From Spinacia oleracea (lineage: Eukaryota; Streptophyta; Magnoliopsida; Caryophyllales; Amaranthaceae): a stretch of 64,000 bases of DNA. Both the position numbers and the translations under genes were made by a program. A model generated the notes under the pieces. It saw nothing but the letters and a program-made list of their open reading frames with translations. It was not told the origin of the DNA and made no database searches. Location of the stretch: positions 7,316,001 through 7,380,000 of the forward strand of contig NC_079490.1 in the NCBI RefSeq assembly GCF_020520425.1, read 5' to 3'. Shown piece by piece: positions 3,271 to 47,849 of this stretch; positions within the stretch are counted from its first letter, which is position 1; the number at the start of each line of letters is the position of its first letter.

Positions 3271-4803
3271 TCTATACCTAGTATTTAAAAACCTAAACCA
3301 TCTACACCATATTGCCACGTGTCATTGTACACCATATTGACACGTGTCATTATCTTTGTTCACCATTTTTTTCGTTTTCCCCGTAAACTCTTTCCCTTCT
3401 TATGATGCCACTTCCTACCCGTATCATCTATTCATCTCCCACCCTTCCATCTTCTAGCTCCTTCAACCTTCAAAATCAATTCTCCATTCAATTCAAATAT
3501 TCCTTCAACAATCAAATTAATCCGTCTACACAATTTATTTAATTCAGTTCTCATTTCTTTGTCTCTTGAGTATAACTTAACCGTTTTCAGAATTGAATTG
3601 GATCTATTAATTGATTCATTAAGGGAAATGAATTAGAAACCCTTAGCATTTTGACGGTTTCTTCTTTATTTTTAGCCATTTAAACCCGATTTTTTACATT
3701 CAATTTTGATTAGGTACATTTCTTTGTTTTCATCTGTTGCTACAATTGATTTTAGTTCTTCTATTGGGTTGTTTTTCAGGCAATTATATGAATGTGAAAA
3801 GGTGCAGCTAGCTCAACACATACCAATACTTTCGCCAATTTGGGCTTCAAGCCTTCTTTAATTTCTCCACTAACTTCTCTATCAAGTTCAACTTTATATT
3901 TTAGTATATTTTAAGGGAAATTTGCAACTTCAGGTGAATATATGATGAACAATGTATTTTTTGTTGATTGATTGTTTCGGATATTATACTTCGTATCTTT
4001 ATTAAAATGAGGTTCTTGTATATTTGATTATTAGTTATTTGGTGGCTTTTAGAATTTTATTTAAAATTTGGCTAACATGCCAAGTTTTGTATCTGGAATG
4101 GGTTTATGATGAATCAATAATAGGGTATACGGTGAAGAAGAATGGCACAAACCATCGATGACTTTCTGAACTCGTAGCGGCTGGATTAGTGATTTATTTT
4201 ATCTGAGTTGTAGGGGCTTCTCACTTTCTATGATGGCTAACTTCCTATTTAATTGATCTGATTTTATTAGCTAACTTCCTCTGTTGCCGTTGTTGTGCAA
4301 TATTGTTGATTAGGTACTAACTCCACTATAGCTACATAATGGGCATTGGGTACTTCTGCATCCATTGTCTCATTGCAAGATGATGTTTTTTCCAGACGCC
4401 AGTTTAAATTTTATTTATTTATTCGTCTTATAAATTAAAGTGGATATGTGAATTCATATCCTAAAATTTTTACCCATTTTTCTTCTAAGCTAAATCCTCA
4501 TAATCAATTTTTGTTTCTAATCCATTGAAGTTGGGAAATGACGCAATAGCATCAAATCTTATAGCTACTACAAAGTCCTCACAATGTACAATATATGTAT
4601 TTATATATTCTACTACATATTTACATCGTTTAGATTTGGCAAGTAACGTGTATAAACTGCAAAGACTACTCTGTATTAGTGGGATTTAACCTTGAGGCTT
4701 AAGGAGTTCCATTTTTCGGTGTAAACATGTTAGTGTTGGTGGAACATGTTCTACATGCCTATGTATATAAATAGCCCGTTCATCGAACGGGCCAAAGAAC
4801 TAA
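3271..4803 (+). mobile_element. Non-autonomous Helitron (1.53 kb)
   Basis: The 5' end is A|TCTATACCTAGTATTTAAAA, followed by a CACGTGTCA word as in other Helitrons of this window. The 3' end has a hairpin (GCCCGTTC at 4774-4781, loop ATC, GAACGGGC at 4785-4792), then CAAAGAA and CTAA, ending at 4803 before a host T. No target duplication is expected, and the A|T insertion context fits. The interior has 5'-UTR-like pyrimidine-rich DNA and intron-like stretches but no readable captured exon. The Rep/helicase gene is absent. Confidence 0.75.
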
Positions 4804-6339: not shown

Positions 6340-12788
<6,449 letters not shown>

Positions 12789-37448: not shown

Positions 37449-40400
37449 ATGTTAGAGAAGATAGGATTACCACCAAAACCCTCATTAAGGGGTAATGTTT
37501 GGGTTGTTGATGCTTCTCATTGCCAATCTTGTTCTTCCCAGTTCACTTTCCTCAATCGCAAGGTTCTTACTTTCCCATTTAATTTTCCTGATTTTGTTGA
37601 TTTTATGTTTTTGAAGTAATTTTTTTTTGGTGATTTTGATTGATTTTTGATGTGGGTATTCCCCAAATTAGGTTATTTGCTTTTGAATTTGATGAATTGG
37701 ATAAGCTAAGTTATTCATCTGTTCTCGATCATGTGTAATTATGAAGTACTAATTAAAGTATCAATGATGATGGTTTTTAATTTCATCAATTCCAGACATT
37801 TATTTGATGCTAAATTGATATCCCAGACTTTTTTTTTTTTTTTTTGATGTGATTGTATGAAATCAAAACTTAATTGCGCAATTATCAATTATGTATGAAG
37901 ATACTAGTATATGAAGTTCTTCATGTTTCTAAAGAAGGGTGTTTATGGGGTTTTTGTATTTTCAGCATCATTGTAGAAGATGTGGAGGATTGTTTTGCAA
38001 CAGTTGCACAAATAGCAGAATTGTGTTGCGGGGACAAGGCGATTCCCCAGTTCGTATATGTGAAGCTTGTAAAAAACTAGAGGAGTGTGCTCGGTTTGAG
38101 CTACGGCATGGACATAAGAACCGAGCTGGGAAAGGTATCCAACTCTCATTTAAATACTTCTTGCACATGAAATTGGAATTGGAATGGAGTTTGCTTCGTA
38201 TTAATTGTATTGTTTTGCATTATTTATGGGAATGCTTGTGGCAAGGCTCTCTCGTATGTCAATATCGACTAGTTGAGCCTTTCGGGGGGTTGGGGGGCGG
38301 GGGTAGGGGTAGATCAGTATTCAGTAGATGTTAGCAAACTTACCATTCTGATTTTGATAGGGGTCTATTAGTCTTTTACATTTGATAATAACATAGCATA
38401 AATAAGTAGAATTGTCAAATGCCTTGAAGTTCCTGCCTAGGACGGAGTAAAGAAGGATAGAATACCTACAAAATTGCAAGAACCTGTTTTAGACTTTTTT
38501 TAGTCACAACAAAGTAGAAATCAAAGGCCGGTCTGATGAGATTCATGGGTAGTCCATACTCAATTGTAATTCAAAGCTGAAACTCTACCGTTGAGAGACT
38601 CTACCGATGGACAACATTGATTAGAGTTGATTGTTGATTTTAAAAAAGGGAAATTCTCTTTGGTAGCATTATACTTTCGTAAATTCTCATTAGTAACAAA
38701 AAGTTTGCCATTTTCTCCAAAATAGCATTAGTAATCTAAGTTCTCTCTAATATAGCATTATCTCACTAAGTTTGACCTAATTAACCAACCTAGTACTAAC
38801 TATGACTAAGTATCAGTAAAAGCACTACATTAACCTTTTTTTAGTATAGTCGATTCACCCAACCAACCTTCACTAATCATTCGTTCATTGAAAACCCATC
38901 AACCTTCAATAATCTGCCACTCCTCAAAATAAATGGACTTCATTAACATAAATGTTTAGTTTACATAATAACGCAAAAGGAAAAAAAAATCTTTTTACAT
39001 CAACAACCTTCTGTTAGTCTGTTACATCAACTACGAGAGATTATGGTCTTCAAAACTACTACTCTTAATAGTTTTGTTTGTGCAAGAGGAAGTTGTAATA
39101 CAACCTAGACCTGGGTTCACTGGCGAGGTTGAGTAAGGAATTAAGGGGCAATGGTTGCAGCAGTTCTGTGAGGATTTGAGTTGAACGGAATTGAATATTT
39201 TTTTTTAAAATCAGAAAAAAGATAAAGGGGGAAACGAGGGAATTGGTGATTTATGTTTTTGGGGGAAATGAGTGAACTGTAATTAGGTTAATTAGTTTAA
39301 AATTAGTGAAATAATGTTATATTAGAGAGAACTTAGATTGCTAATGCTATTTTAGAGAAAGTGGCAATTTTTTTTGCTACCAATGAGAATTTACAAAAGT
39401 ATAAATGTATAATGCTACCAAGGAGAATTTCCCTTAAAAAATTTGACGGGAAACAATGTATACCGTGATTCAAGCGTAGTGTTTCAAGTTGTGTTTTCTC
39501 AGCTAATGTTGATTGCCTGTGAACAGGGACCTCAAAACTCGCTTCAAGGAGTGTGGATGAAGTTATGAATGAGATATTGGTGAATGATGGTAAAGAATCT
39601 GCTCGTATGGGATCAGGTAAAGAAATCATTAGCCAAGATGAGGATGTAGATCATCTTGGTAATGCATCTAACAGCAGTAATAACGAGATGGATTCTGTTA
39701 CTCCTGAAGATTTACGTCAACAAGCTTTAGATGAAAAGAACAATTATAAAATCCTTAAAGGAGAAGGAAAATCTGTAGAAGCTCTAAAAGCATTTAAAAG
39801 GGCAAGGGAACTCGAGCGGCAAGCAGGTGCTCTGGAACTCCAGTTGAGGAAGGATAGGAAAAAGGCTTTGGTTTCGGCTTCAGTTTCGGCTTCTAAGAGC
39901 TTAGCTGAGACACAGATAAACCAAGGTACGTCTCCTGAATTAGGCACAAAAAGTAAGTCCAGTAACGTTAAGGAAAAGGATGATCTCGCCGCAGAACTTA
40001 AAGAACTTGGTTGGTCTGATGTGGATATCAATGATGCTAAAAAACCAGCCCCAACGAGCTTAGAAGGCGAGCTTTTCAATCTAATCCAGGATTCCGGTGA
40101 AACTAGTCGCAGTAAAGTGTCTTCTAGTTTAGATAAGACTCAAGTTATTGCCTTGAAGAAAAAGGCTCTCTTGCTTAAACGTGAGGGGAAACTTGCTGAA
40201 GCAAAGGAAGAACTAAAAAAAGCAAAATTTTTAGAGAAGCAACTTGAGGAACAGGAATTTTTGGCTGATGGTGAGGAATCTGATGATGAGCTATCTGCTT
40301 TGATGCGTAGTTTGGATAAGGATGAGAAAAAGGAACTTTCTGGTGGGTTTGGTATGGATTCTGCGTTTGACTTGAATAATCTCTCGGTTTTTGGTGGTGA

Positions 40401-42267
40401 TCTTAATATTGATGATAACTTTGAGGTTACGGACGATGATATACATGATCCAGAAATGGCTGCTGCGTTACAATCACTAGGTTGGACGGAGGAGCCTATT
40501 CAATTTGATGACGTTGTACCTAACTCCACTTTTGTTGATAGAGAAGCAGTTTCAGATGAGATCCTTAAGTTGAAGAAAGAAGCTGTAACCCAGAAACGAT
40601 CTGGGAATTTGGCAGAGGCAATGTCACTTCTTAAGAGAGCCAAAGCTCTTGAAAAAGAAATTGAAAAGTTCGATTCAAGCCCTGAAAAAGAACCTGAATC
40701 AAGTGGAATGCAATCTAGAACTTCCAATATAATCCCGAATACCGAAAGAAAACCACCAGTGAAGAAGAGTAGATTAATGATTCAGAAGGAGCTTTTGGCC
40801 CTGAAAAAGAAAGCTCTTGCTTTAAGAAGGGAAGGGAAACTCGAGGAGGCGGATAGTGAATTGAAGAAAGGAAAAGTCCTTGAACAGCAACTTGAGGAGA
40901 TGGATAATCCTGCTAAGTTGGACACTCAAATGAATGTTGGCTATGAAGTATCAGACTCAGTAGATGAACACCTTGATTTATCTTCTTCTCTTGCACCCGA
41001 GGATGAACAAGGTGATGTTACAGAGCAAGATTTGCTTGATCCGGCATATCTTTCACTCCTCAAGAACTTGGGTTGGCAGGATGAAGACAACAATGCAAGT
41101 GTTGGGCCCTCTGTTTCTGTGGAAAGTAGAGATGCTACTTCTGGTAGTGTTACAGTTGAGAAACGAAGGAGAAGAAGTAAAGGTGAGATTCAGAGGGAAC
41201 TTTTAGGTTTGAAGAGGAAGGCTCTGACCCTCAGACGTCAAGGACAAGAAACCGAGGCTGACGAAATGCTTGAAACTGCAAAGAAATTGGAGGAAGAGTT
41301 GGCTGAACTCGAAGCACCAAAAACTGAGAAACTGGTTAGTTTCTCTGAGACTGAAGCCGGAGTACAAGGAGATCTGCTTGGAACTTGTGAGACTATGGAA
41401 AAAAGAATTTACCAAACACCCCTCAAAAGACCAGCTGAAGCCAATGATGCCTCCGAGAAACGCCAAGTGGTGCAGGCAGCTAACCCGTCCCCAAATGTTT
41501 CACCCGATACCCAAAAAAGTCCGGTTCAACAAGAGATACTTACTCATAAAAGGAAAGCACTTGCTTTGAAAAAAGAGGGGAAAGTGGCTGAAGCCAAAGA
41601 AGAACTTAGGAAAGCAAAGCTGCTTGAAAGAAATTTGGAGGATGACAAAGACAAACCCATTAATCCCTTACCAGTGGAAATCTCGTCTTCTTCTGTTGTG
41701 TCAGTTACTGAAAGTGAGGAGCATAAAAACACATCGACTTCCACACAACCCGAGGAACAGGATCCGGCCCGTGTGGCCCGAAAACCAATGTCTACCCAAG
41801 AGCGGTTAAAATTGCAGCGAGAGTGCCTTAAACACAAACGGAACGGTTTGAAGCTACGTAGAGAAGGTAAGACTGAAGAAGCTGATGCTGAACTTGAGTT
41901 AGCCAAGAAACTTGAAGCACAGCTCGAGGAAGTTAGTCCAGTTCCCACATCGAGTAACGAAGGACCTATTGATGATGCTGGTATTGAGGACCTTTTTGAC
42001 CCTCAACTCTTATCGGCCCTTAAAGCAGTTGGTCTGCAAGATGATGCTCATGTTGTTTCACAGACTACAGTAAAGGCAGAGCTACCCACGTCAAGCTCAA
42101 TTAAGAATGAGAGTTTTGATCAAGAGAGAGTTCAGATGGAAGCCCTAATTAAGGCTGAAAAAGTGAAAGCTTTAAACCTTAAACGGTCCGGTAAACAAGC
42201 AGAGGCACTGGATGCTCTTCGTCGAGCCAAACAGATGGAAAAGAAGCTTACTTCACTGCCCTCGTAA
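37449..42267 (+). CDS. FYVE zinc-finger protein with eight charged helical repeats (3 exons, 1007 aa)
   Basis: Exons 37449-37562, 37966-38134 and 39527-42267 join in frame (3024 nt). The N-terminal FYVE domain (residues about 17-75) is complete: WVVD 18-21, an R-K-H-H-C-R motif across the exon 1/2 junction, and eight Cys (25, 28, 41, 44, 49, 52, 70, 73). FYVE fingers bind phosphatidylinositol 3-phosphate on endosomes. The rest is acidic and coiled-coil-rich. It has eight copies of a 35-40-residue repeat of the form LKKKALxLKREGKLAEA..ELKKAKxLExQLEE, and four short motifs like DPELLxALxxLGW between them. The architecture matches a plant-specific FYVE family (as I remember, Arabidopsis At1g61690-like), with a probable endosomal trafficking role (inference). 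Intron 2 (1.39 kb) holds a 786-bp TIR element. No damage seen. Confidence 0.92.
38648..39433. mobile_element. TIR element (786 bp) in FYVE gene intron 2
   Basis: It begins GGGAAATTCTC and ends GAGAATTTCCC, with TIRs of about 130 bp (TAGCATTA, AGAGAACTTAGATT inside). The flanking repeat is TTAAAAAA, 8 bp (38640-38647, 39434-39441), which suggests hAT or MULE. No transposase. Confidence 0.75.
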
Positions 42268-43435: not shown

Positions 43436-46400
43436 ATGGGTGTCAATAATTTGTTCCAAATTCTTTGTTTTTGGGCAATAATAAGTTGTTTTCTTCCTTT
43501 AACAATTTCTGGGTTAGTGAGAATCAGTCTCAAAAGAGCTCATCTACAACATCATCAAACAAGTTTCAATGAAATTAGATTTTCCAGGAAGTTGGGAACA
43601 TTTGAAGTGGCAAATGTTGGTGATTCAATTATATATTTGAAGAATTATATGAACACTCAATTTTATGGAGAGATTGGAATTGGCACACCACCCCAGAAAT
43701 TTGCAGTTATATTTGATACTGCAATTTCCTATCTTTGGGTTCCATCTTCTAAATGCAACTCTTCTGTAAGTCTCTGCTTTCAGATTTTGTTGATACAAAA
43801 GCAGTTATTCCAATGATGGTTATTAGTATGTTCGGCTATGAGAGTGCGTTCTATTGACCTAACTTTCACTTATTTTTTCTGACATTATGAAATATAAACT
43901 TATCAGAACTTATTTTAGTTATAAATTGTAATTATTGTTACTAAACTTATCTTATCTGAAATTAAGGGAACATAACAGGTTGTTAGGTTACATTATAAGT
44001 ACACGTGAACAGTCGATAAGGTGAATTTGTGCTTGTATTCAATTATTAACTCATAATTAAGCTGTACTTTTATTGTAGGTGGCTTGTGATTTCCATCACA
44101 GGTATAATTCAAGCAATTCAAGTACATTCACCAAGATAGGTAAAACCTTTGCTTCATTATCTTAAAAACAAACTCATTTTGACAAATAATTTGAGACCAT
44201 AATTTAAGTTTTAATTATGTGGTCAACTTGTCCATGTAATCTTGTCACATAGCTTGTTAAATGTTGATATGTGTAGCTAATAATATGCCATCTTACTCTC
44301 CAGGAACCCCGTATGATATTATTTATGGGACGGAAGCAAAACTCATTGGTATTCTCAACCAGGATAATGTTGAAATTGGAGGTCTACTTGTCAAAAACCA
44401 AGCAAGTTTCTAATTAATTTTATCAATATTTGATGTCTTAACTATTTTCTTGCACGTACACCCACCTACAAGAGGTGAGTGGCAGTTTCATCTCCAAAAT
44501 CATGAACTATTTTCTTACACGAGTTTTTTTTAACATGACTTGTTGTGACTTACTAAGTTAATATCCTCTCCGTAGCACAACCTTAGTGAGAATTGAAGTT
44601 CACTTTTCGACTAATTATTGTGCAAGAAACATTCACATGATAACATAATAGGCATCATTGTTGCTAATTAGTGACAAAAATGGCACTCTTTGCTAGTTAG
44701 GAAACATAATTTGGCTATGTTACATGGACTTTTCATTTTTTGTAGTGAATGTTGTGCAATGCATGCAAATAATACCTTCCCTTGGAACAAATTAACTTAC
44801 AATGGCTATATTACATGGATTCTTCATTCTTACACACAAAACTACTCTTAACCTCTGTTCTGTCACCTTATTTCCACTATTTCATGAAAAATAAGTTCAG
44901 ATAAAGATAAGTTCATGAAAAATGGTTGACCAAGTATAATTTTAAATTTTATTATGTTCAGATAAGATAAGTTCAGGAAAAAAAAAGTGAAATCATGTTT
45001 TTACAAAAATGTATGCATGCAGATACTCTTCGAGGTAACTAGTGAAGACAGCCTAACTTTGGTACATGCTAAATTTGATGGTGTAGTAGGGCTTGCATTT
45101 CCAGATAAATCAGACGGGAACGCCAACCTTATATGGTAAACATTACTCCGTATAACTTAGGCATGAGTTTTTTTCCTCTTTTAATATGATCATAAACACC
45201 AAGTTTCTAACTATCATGTAGGCATACAATGGCAGAACAAGGGCTATTAGAGAAGAAGATTTTCTCGATTTGGTTTAACATGGATCCAGAAGCAGAATTA
45301 GGAGGAGAAATAGTTTTTGGTGGAGTTGATCCTAATCATTTCAAGGGAAAACATACATATGTTCCTGTGATCCAGAACCAGGATGGTATATGGCAGGTCA
45401 GTAGGAAACATAAAGAAAGTACGAAAATTTACGTGAATAATCTGAGAGTTATAGTAGTCTACTGGATTAGGTTTCGTGTACGCACGGATATTATAAAATT
45501 ATAATTTGACCATTTTGTATAAAATATTTGAGTAAGACAAAATTGTTCGAAAATAAAGTAGTATGGAGTACAAAAGATTTTGACGGATTTTCAAAAGATT
45601 AATTAAATTTTAGTGAAATATACTGAATCTTTTCCATAAAAAGTTATTGAAAACAAATAAATGAATAAAAAAATAAAGGTTTTGGCGGGAATTTTTTTAG
45701 TATAATATATTACCTTAGAATAATCCAACTGTGTGTCTGTGGGCTTGTGTTTTTATTATGATTCCAACTTCCAAGTGATCAGAGATTCAGAGGTTACAGT
45801 TTTGGGATTTTTGTGAGACTATTGCAAGTATACGAGTTGATCCCCAAAGATGGATTAACCTAGATGGTCTAAAGTTTACATTAGTTGATCATATAAGTTA
45901 GTTATTAACAGACTTTTAATGACATTTAAGGTTTCTTCTTATTGTATATTCAGATTGAAATCGGGGAATTCTTCATTGGCAACCATTCATCTGGTATAGT
46001 TTCGGTGATCATAAACATCAGTTGATTTCAAATGATCTGTATTTAGTTCCATTAAGTTGGAGAAATGATCATAAAACTCTTTGAATTTCCATTCATGTTT
46101 TCCTAGGCTACTGTCAGGAGGGTTGCCCTGCTGTGTTAGACTCAGGATCACCATTACTTTCAGGCCCTTCGGTATTTTCTGAAATCTCTTCCATTTTCTC
46201 TTTTCATTCTCTACCTAGGTTCTGTTAAAATTATTCTACTGATATCTCGTGAAATTTCAGACTGTTATTATTGAGATAAACCACGCGATTGGAGCAAAAG
46301 GTGTCAAAAGCATGGAATGCAAAGAAGTAGTCTCTCAGTATGGAAAGATTATATATGATCTTTTAAAATCAGGGGTCTCTTTCTCCTTACCCGGCCCTTT

Positions 46401-47849
46401 TGTACTGTCCCTCAATTTCCCTTCTGAGTCGCGCAATTTATGAAAAGTTTATTATTTTTTATCTGCAGGTTAATCCTGATAAAGTATGTTCCCAAATCAG
46501 CTTGTGCTTCATTGGTTCTCAACATTTGAGGTTAATCCTTTTACATCTTAAAGACCTTTAGTTCTAAAGTAGATAGCGTAAATGTGAGGACTCGGTAAAA
46601 TAATTTAACGGACTTGGGAATGAAATGAAGTTATAGATTGCAGAGTTGGATATACATAGCCTCTTTTCTAGGGCAAGGAAACAATTTTCACTCTTGGAGT
46701 TTGGCAAGACTTTGTTGCTTTGTTCTTTTTACCCAAACTCCCCTTACACGGAATCATTCTGATCTTGGCTCTATTCCGGTTTGGTCTGTTCTGGTCTGAA
46801 TTTTTCTTATCTGGTCTGATTTTAAGAATAAGGTAAAGAGAACACAACCTAAACCCTAATTGGGACTTATATAGACTAGCTTTTAGTCGTATAATAAACG
46901 TGTTTCCCTCATCGAAATTTATATGAATACATGATCTTATTTAACCTGAAACCTTTTTTTTTTTGAGCCTGAGTCAATTTATACTTCATTTTTCCCAAGA
47001 GAGACTTAATGACATTTTCTTCTTTAAGAGTTCATATTCCATAAACCAAATTGATCTGCAGGAATGATCTGAAGACGGGACAGGAAAGACAAAACAGAAA
47101 AGAACTTACATCAGTTACAGATGATCTGTTATGCAGTGCCTGTCAGAAGACAGTAACTTGGACTCAGAACCAGATGAAACAGGAAAAAACCATCAAAGAA
47201 ATACTGAAATATGTTAGAAAGGTCATTTTTTTATTACCTCATTTTGCAGATTTCTTTCTTCTAATTAAGCTTTTCAAGCTTCACTAATAAAATCTGGTTT
47301 CCGCTCGTTGCAGCTATGTCATAGCTTTCCAGCTCCTGCAGGAGATGTAGTAGTCCCTTGTGACCGTATCAAACGCATGCCAAACTTGACGCTCACGATT
47401 GGAAACAATCCTTTCACATTCACTCCTCAACAGGTTTGATTAGTTCGTTTCTATTTTATCAAGTGTGGTGTTAATTAGGTGCTAATGATGCTACAAGTTC
47501 AAGATTAAGTGTTCATCCAAATTCAAGGGCATTTTAAGTTTTGTGTTGCTTATACCCGTGTTACCTCCCTCAATTAACTGCAGTACATTCGTACAACTGA
47601 AGAACACGATAAAAAGATCTGCAGAAGCCAGTTTTATGCAGTGGATCTGCCATCTCCTGCAGGCTCATGGTACGCTTGATTTGCATTTTACGATACAAGT
47701 TGTTTGCTCGATATTTGAGGTCTTCTTGCAAATCCTCATTCGATGTTTGTCATCTTTGTCACAGGATCTTTGGAAATGTATTCATGGGAGTGTACCATTC
47801 TGTTTTTGATTTCGGCAACCAGCGAGTGGGCTTTGCGGAAGCAGTCTAA
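43436..47849 (+). CDS. AP2: phytepsin-type aspartic proteinase homologue with altered active site (13 exons, 502 aa)
   Basis: Exons: 43436-43765, 44079-44139, 44304-44401, 45023-45135, 45222-45396, 45954-45993, 46107-46171, 46261-46374, 46469-46530, 47062-47221, 47314-47433, 47584-47669 and 47765-47849 (1509 nt, in frame throughout). Layout as AP1: signal peptide (about 5-25), LVRISLKR propeptide, two lobes, and a PSI with all six Cys ([22 protein letters not shown]). Key differences: the first motif is FDTAIS (Asp94, Gly replaced by Ala), the second is LDSGSP (Asp284 kept, Thr and Ser changed), and the flap keeps Tyr138 but reads [11 protein letters not shown] instead of YGSGSISG. Intron 3 uses a GC donor (CAA|GCAAGT) and is absent from AP1. 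No stops or frameshifts. Likely reduced or no catalysis (inference). It may be a regulatory homologue or an early pseudogene, or active despite the changes. Confidence 0.88.

Follow-up and report, generated by a model that had tools for sequence, protein, structure and literature searches.

AP2, a PSI-type aspartic proteinase homologue of spinach with an altered first catalytic motif, as a possible non-cutting member of its family

There are precedents, both in animals and among other plant proteins, for dead pepsin-fold enzymes reused for other jobs. PAGs and the allergen Bla g 2 are called inactive, with possible peptide-binding roles; Bla g 2 and the sheep and goat PAGs carry Phe at position 75 and altered DT/SG motifs, and the same source, seen in excerpt, proposes an inactive membrane-bound BACE-like paralogue in Phytophthora (PMC3116508). 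In buffalo PAG-1, displacement of the catalytic water is attributed to an Ala that has replaced an active-site Gly (excerpt of PMC3335542). Among plant A1 proteins, Arabidopsis group IV (SAP1) is without canonical sites, reading DLGG and SSVN, and the excerpted text mentions no PSI for it (PMC9937552). Here we describe AP2, a gene in a 64,000-nucleotide stretch of the spinach (Spinacia oleracea) genome (NC_079490.1, positions 7,316,001 to 7,380,000 of the forward strand; hereafter the window). AP2 would be a variant of this known kind of event, and its case is strengthened by another paralogue that reads DTA and by the basic charge of the AP2 PSI. We tentatively propose, with somewhat less than even confidence, that AP2 is a retained and probably proteolytically inactive member of the PSI-type A1 aspartic proteinases, one that may bind rather than cleave and perhaps carries a membrane-active PSI.

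Like the phytepsin/cardosin-type PSI proteinases (1qdm, 5nfg, 1b5f), AP2 has a pepsin-like domain and a PSI with the same Cys pattern; unlike them, it has DTA with a following Ile, a longer flap, a Pro in loop 2, IFGN and a basic PSI. It resembles the PAGs in being a pepsin-family protein with active-site substitutions, whereas the PAGs are mammalian placental proteins and, to our knowledge, have no PSI. Bla g 2 likewise combines a changed DT/SG motif with a pepsin fold, and has a flap insertion, but has Phe at position 75 where AP2 has Tyr; we know of no PSI in Bla g 2. AP2 shares the lack of a canonical active site with SAP1 and TAXI-like plant A1 proteins, and differs from SAP1 in its DTA/DSG motifs and, as far as the excerpt goes, in its PSI. 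No inactive PSI-type plant protease was found among the literature matches listed, judged by their titles and the beginnings of their abstracts, which does not show that such proteins are undescribed.

Judging from its sequence, AP2 is by descent a PSI-type plant A1 aspartic proteinase, its place in the tree being less sure. The Asp family profile (PF00026) scores 310.7 bits (cut-off 19.9), and the SapB_2 and SapB_1 profiles score 47.2 and 37.3 bits. The best PDB match is prophytepsin 1qdm (460.6 bits), and identity to phytepsin is 48.0% over 435 columns. Six Cys of the protease domain align with those of phytepsin, and two more lie in the hydrophobic N-terminus. In a splice model built by hand, AP2 is a complete gene whose coding sequence (CDS) of 1509 nt, including the stop, encodes 502 aa without an internal stop and with the frame open across all 13 exons. 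The 12 introns all end in AG; 11 begin with GT and one (intron 3) with GC. A second splice alignment, with the canonical paralogue AP5 as query, recovered AP2 without a frameshift. The two models disagree at the ends of the gene and within the variable PSI linker; in the linker the second has 46887-46901 and 47089-47221 instead of an exon 10 that starts at 47062. AP2 is not a plainly broken gene, since it has no stop or frameshift. The GC donor was likewise rejected as a sign of decay, given that another canonical paralogue, AP4, also has GC at the same intron and AP5 has GC at another intron. The features of AP2 are as follows; exons are those of the hand splice model.

43436..47849, plus strand: AP2 gene, PSI-type A1 aspartic proteinase homologue (splice model, family profiles, PDB match)
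43436..43765, plus strand: exon 1, with the hydrophobic start, the propeptide and loop 1
43715..43729, plus strand: loop 1, DTAIS, with its Asp conserved; the Gly of relatives is replaced by Ala (codon GCA, 43721-43723) and their Ser by Ile
44079..44139, plus strand: exon 2
44304..44401, plus strand: exon 3, holding the flap and followed by the GC donor at 44402-44403
44324..44350, plus strand: flap, YGTEAKLIG, with one residue more than the relatives in the alignment (sequence, alignment)
45023..45135, plus strand: exon 4
45222..45396, plus strand: exon 5
45954..45993, plus strand: exon 6
46107..46171, plus strand: exon 7, holding loop 2
46139..46153, plus strand: loop 2, DSGSP; Asp and Gly conserved, Thr replaced by Ser and Ser by Pro (sequence, alignment)
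46261..46374, plus strand: exon 8, with the start of the PSI inside it
46303..47352, plus strand: PSI, a saposin-like domain (introns included), six Cys, net charge +5 (Pfam profiles, charge count)
46469..46530, plus strand: exon 9
47062..47221, plus strand: exon 10, with the PSI helix that matches StAP H3, Lys kept; its start is less sure (47089 plus a short extra exon in the second alignment)
47314..47433, plus strand: exon 11
47584..47669, plus strand: exon 12
47765..47849, plus strand: exon 13 and stop; IFGN, aligned with ILGD in canonical relatives (splice model, alignment)

Intron 5 also contains a repeat of ~240 bp (45461-45699 of the window) with at least 39 other genomic matches at 82-89% identity (40 of 2002 candidates scored), which is probably a short transposable element. 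An earlier note on this DNA, made from the sequence alone, had described 13 in-frame exons, the three motifs DTAIS, DSGSP and YGTEAKLIG, and an intact PSI with six Cys; all of these are borne out by the splice model, the alignment and the two SapB matches. The signal peptide that it also listed is judged here from the hydrophobic start alone.

Active A1 peptidases follow a D-T/S-G rule, which AP2 breaks at its first motif (DTA, within FDTAIS) and keeps at its second (DSG, within DSGSP); its flap reads YGTEAKLIG where that of the canonical paralogue AP1 reads YGSGSISG. AP2 thus presents active-site substitutions on a conserved scaffold, as do the inactive PAGs and Bla g 2, and it is because of this analogy that we regard it as most likely a retained non-cutting protein. 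The AP2 chain would enter the secretory route and fold as a bilobed pepsin-like protein, in which the Ala that replaces the first-motif Gly, the Ile that replaces the next Ser, the Pro of loop 2 and the longer flap may disturb the site of the catalytic water. The cleft may then bind peptides without cutting them, while the basic PSI would give contact with anionic membranes or with a sorting receptor. What the data show directly is the gene with its substitutions, another DTA paralogue, purifying selection averaged along the whole AP2 branch and the charge of the PSI. The inactivity, the peptide binding and the membrane role of AP2 are all steps that we infer.

The genome (894.2 Mb in 242 contigs; the window lies on contig C4, and C1-C6 are each 115-189 Mb long) was searched with the family profile and with the AP2 protein. 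Including AP2, five full PSI-type genes were modelled.

7741..12788 of the window, plus strand: AP1, canonical paralogue used for comparison, 12 exons, 503 aa (splice model)
C3:21.08 Mb (L028, C3:21082200-21086900), minus strand: AP3, full PSI-type gene with DTASS at loop 1
C6:2.27 Mb: AP4, canonical full PSI-type gene
C4:132.81 Mb: AP5, canonical full PSI-type gene

AP1 ends ~31 kb upstream of AP2 (at 12788) and is 49-50% identical to it. AP3 has 12 exons in an open frame that ends in a stop and is preceded, two codons upstream, by a Met; its flap has the normal length and its loop 2 reads DSGTS. Ala thus replaces the first-motif Gly in two of the five modelled genes. When the loop-1 residues were masked and cathepsin D was left out, the tree separated AP1, AP2 and AP3 from AP4, AP5, phytepsin and cardosin B (support 100/99). 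Within the first group, AP2 paired with AP3 at a support of 56/40, against p-AU values of 0.311 for AP1+AP2 and 0.215 for AP1+AP3. A codon model with one omega (dN/dS) preferred AP2+AP3 to AP1+AP2 by 2.6 log units, and AP2 and AP3 have 8 derived residues in common in 277 columns, versus 3 and 3 for the other pairings, but AP2 and AP3 are both long branches. The 8 residues include the loop-1 Ala and the change of Asp to Asn in ILGD. On these comparisons, a single origin of DTA in AP2 and AP3 is weakly favoured.

Pieces of both DTA genes occur elsewhere in the genome. Exon 10 of AP2 is matched in part at L031 (C4:131.42 Mb, 3967-4128; 86% over 169 bp, with an in-frame stop) and at L035 (C6:0.33 Mb, 4006-4064; 95% over 59 bp), which suggests relics or captured fragments of an AP2-like gene. 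A fragment of AP3 comprising an exon, an intron and part of the next exon (84-88%, 321-339 bp) is found three times, at L032 (C6:24.93 Mb), L033 (C4:91.89 Mb) and L034 (C4:146.40 Mb). These copies sit in units of 1-1.5 kb that are 91-95% alike, with TAA common to L033 and L034, and have the appearance of a gene fragment captured and multiplied by a mobile element.

Selection was estimated with a branch codon model (our own implementation) on the 484 columns filled in all five genes. With AP2 alone free, its omega was 0.30 and 0.32 on two topologies over a background of 0.11 and 0.10; with more free classes it was 0.24-0.31, and with every branch free 0.24-0.27. An omega of 1 on the AP2 branch was rejected (twice the log-likelihood difference, 2dlnL, of 10.2 and 11.0; 0/100 simulated nulls as large on each of the two topologies). 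The protease domain alone gave an omega of 0.27 (2dlnL 7.2 against 1), and the prepro part alone was uninformative. The AP2 value also exceeded the background (2dlnL 10.3 and 14.7; 1/100 simulated nulls as large, on one topology). AP3 gave an omega of 0.25 when alone free, with 0/100 simulations as extreme against omega = 1 and 1/100 against the background (one topology). These omega figures are rough because synonymous distances are large, about 1.6 for AP1-AP2 and 2.4 to 23.6 in four other pairs (pairwise omega was computed for 5 of the 10 gene pairs). In the free-ratio model, the stem of AP2+AP3 had next to no length and an omega at the upper limit, and is hence uninformative. Neutral drift was also simulated from the AP1 CDS. 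At 0.26 substitutions per site, roughly the AP2 branch length under omega = 1 (0.26-0.29), a mean of 12.8 stops arose and 0/300 runs were stop-free; after drift of 0.02 substitutions per site, stops were still absent from 24% of 300 simulated genes. As a whole gene, AP2 has neither the stops and frameshifts nor the omega of 1 that mark a pseudogene, and old decay is unlikely.

The PSI of AP2 keeps its six Cys and is basic (net charge +5, isoelectric point 8.9), while the net charge is -4 in AP1, -5 in AP3, -7 in AP4, -5 in AP5 and -3 in phytepsin. Its best solved match is the potato StAP PSI (3rfi), which is acidic over the aligned part (net -6; 8 K+R and 14 D+E). Under acidic conditions the StAP H3 peptide disrupts bilayers, an activity lost on replacement of its only Lys (excerpt of PMC5717070); AP2 keeps a counterpart of this Lys and adds further Lys. 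By analogy, a membrane role for the PSI of AP2 is plausible. A bolder version, to which we give little credence, would make AP2 and AP3 one lineage of PSI-carrying pseudoproteases from a DTA ancestor, in which the insert of AP2 turned from acidic to basic and the dead protease became a folded carrier for a membrane-active PSI that binds anionic membranes without acid pH.

In the wider A1 family of this genome, non-canonical versions of loop 1 are not rare. Among 54 other A1-like loop-1 loci, D-T/S-G is kept in 35 and is not kept or is unreadable in 19. The 19 comprise three DTS, four DLG, two DLA, one DTA (L076), single cases of DLS, DLN, VTG and DAG, and five poor or unreadable loops (L067, L068, L073, L074 and L081). 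L064 was excluded as the same gene as L054, and five matches that start at profile positions 9-15 (C1:86992295, C6:140726246, C1:104863080, C6:117071412 and C6:117073357) stand outside the count. Thirteen of the 19 lie in three clusters, at C3:24.6, C5:6.1 and C6:138.8 Mb, which we take to be groups of TAXI-type proteins. In potato, according to the excerpt of PMC8875628, every one of the 62 aspartic protease genes has motifs holding DT/SG; among the 51 atypical genes, 15 vary more at the first site but retain the Gly. L076 (C1:23.70 Mb) is an A1-like open frame of 438 aa with DTASP at loop 1. Seven TAXi_N fragments (profile positions 37-104, in 68-aa open frames) were also noted, at C4:7714018, C6:24347456, C3:10321020, C3:21438754, C6:16135073, C3:132952708 and C1:94067487; they are perhaps a repeated protease-like piece carried by a mobile element.

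Several observations weigh against a retained, non-cutting AP2. The alignment shows that AP2 keeps both catalytic Asp residues, Tyr75, Trp39, the Gly of loop 2 and the hydrophobic-hydrophobic-Gly motifs, so that some activity is possible. Nor are its changes concentrated at the active site. Of 118 columns constant in six canonical relatives, 22 lie in the three active-site elements and 96 elsewhere; AP2 has changed 29 of the 118, namely 6/22 at the site and 23/96 elsewhere (Fisher p 0.79), and against four PSI-type references only the figures are 9/29 and 62/195 (p 1.0). A targeted change of the AP2 active site is not supported by these tests. For AP3 the corresponding counts are 16/118 in all, with 1/22 at the site and 15/96 elsewhere (p 0.30), and 4/29 and 51/195 with the PSI-type references (p 0.17). 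When held out as controls, AP1, AP4, AP5 and phytepsin each had 0/22 site columns changed with the six-reference set and 0 or 1 of 29-30 with the four PSI-type references, but site columns were also changed in cardosin B (3/25 and 3/29) and in cathepsin D (4/26 and 4/29). From these comparisons, special protection of the active site seems to have been lost in AP2, though the site was not singled out for change. The omega of AP2 is an average over the whole branch, before and after the loss of the Gly, and is not dated to the time after it. With every branch free, the canonical AP1 has an omega of 0.20-0.22, near that of AP2, while AP4 and AP5 have 0.05-0.08; the raised omega is common to AP1, AP2 and AP3 and therefore need not reflect lost catalysis. 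The PSI of AP2 by itself (104 codons) has an omega of 0.40, which is indistinguishable from 1 (2dlnL 1.6) and from the background (1.8), and the hydrophobic AVVW patch of the StAP H3 peptide is TVTW in AP2. The grouping of AP1, AP2 and AP3 is weak when the tree is rooted with cathepsin D (67/73). Lastly, PAG-1 is an imperfect parallel for the first motif of AP2, since the excerpted source does not specify which Gly is replaced and shows VVFDTGSS as a conserved stretch (PMC3335542).

The reasoning of the earlier note, that three changed active-site elements in an otherwise intact gene fit selection for a non-catalytic role better than simple decay, is upheld in part. All three elements are indeed changed, and the data reject neutral decay of AP2 as a whole over the long term, but active-site changes are not over-represented and no constraint specific to the PSI is apparent. 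Likewise, the dN/dS comparison that it had suggested gave a whole-branch value of 0.24-0.32, with an omega of 1 rejected, but a value for canonical AP1 that comes close to it when every branch is free.

The retained catalytic residues bear on the idea that AP2 is still a working acid protease, perhaps slow or of narrow specificity, that tolerates the loop-1 Ala. The two Asp, the flap Tyr, Trp39, the second-motif Gly and the six protease-domain Cys are all in place, and AP3 combines the same Ala with otherwise near-canonical site elements. We nevertheless consider such an enzyme unlikely: AP2 adds to the Ala an Ile beside the motif, a Pro in loop 2 and a flap insertion, and DTA is not known to us from any active enzyme of the pepsin family. 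PAG-1 is also held to be inactivated by an Ala at the place of an active-site Gly, the excerpt not stating which one (PMC3335542).

The selection estimates speak in turn to a recent loss of function, after which AP2 would be decaying with its frame intact since too little time has passed. The elevation of omega over the background, the PSI value that is indistinguishable from 1 and the fraction of simulated genes still stop-free at 0.02 substitutions per site would all suit this idea. We judge it distinctly unlikely, given that all splice sites are usable, that there is no stop or frameshift, that omega = 1 is rejected across the whole branch, and that the six Cys of the PSI and the six of the protease domain are retained. 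It is also quite improbable, in our estimation, that AP2 resembles TAXI-type proteins in function, being secreted and binding a microbial enzyme as an inhibitor or decoy while its PSI matters little. In favour of this, departures from the canonical loop 1 are common in the plant A1 family, as the 54 loci show, and the TAXi_N profile matches AP2 at 35.3 bits, as it does AP1 at 49 bits; against it, AP2 has a PSI, its nearest solved protein is phytepsin, and no target is known for AP2 as an inhibitor. A retained, non-cutting PSI-type protein is the reading that we tentatively prefer.

Between AP1 and AP2, the window also contains a FYVE zinc-finger open frame (37939-38334) and a 904-aa open frame (39553-42267), which are perhaps one gene.

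The sorting and membrane-disrupting activities of the PSI are hard to separate from those of the host enzyme. AP2, in which the PSI is kept and the catalytic site is changed, would let the PSI and catalysis be tested apart, beside a canonical AP1 ~31 kb upstream. If AP2 is inactive, it extends the non-cutting reuse of the pepsin fold, known from the PAGs, Bla g 2 and other plant A1 proteins, to the PSI type.

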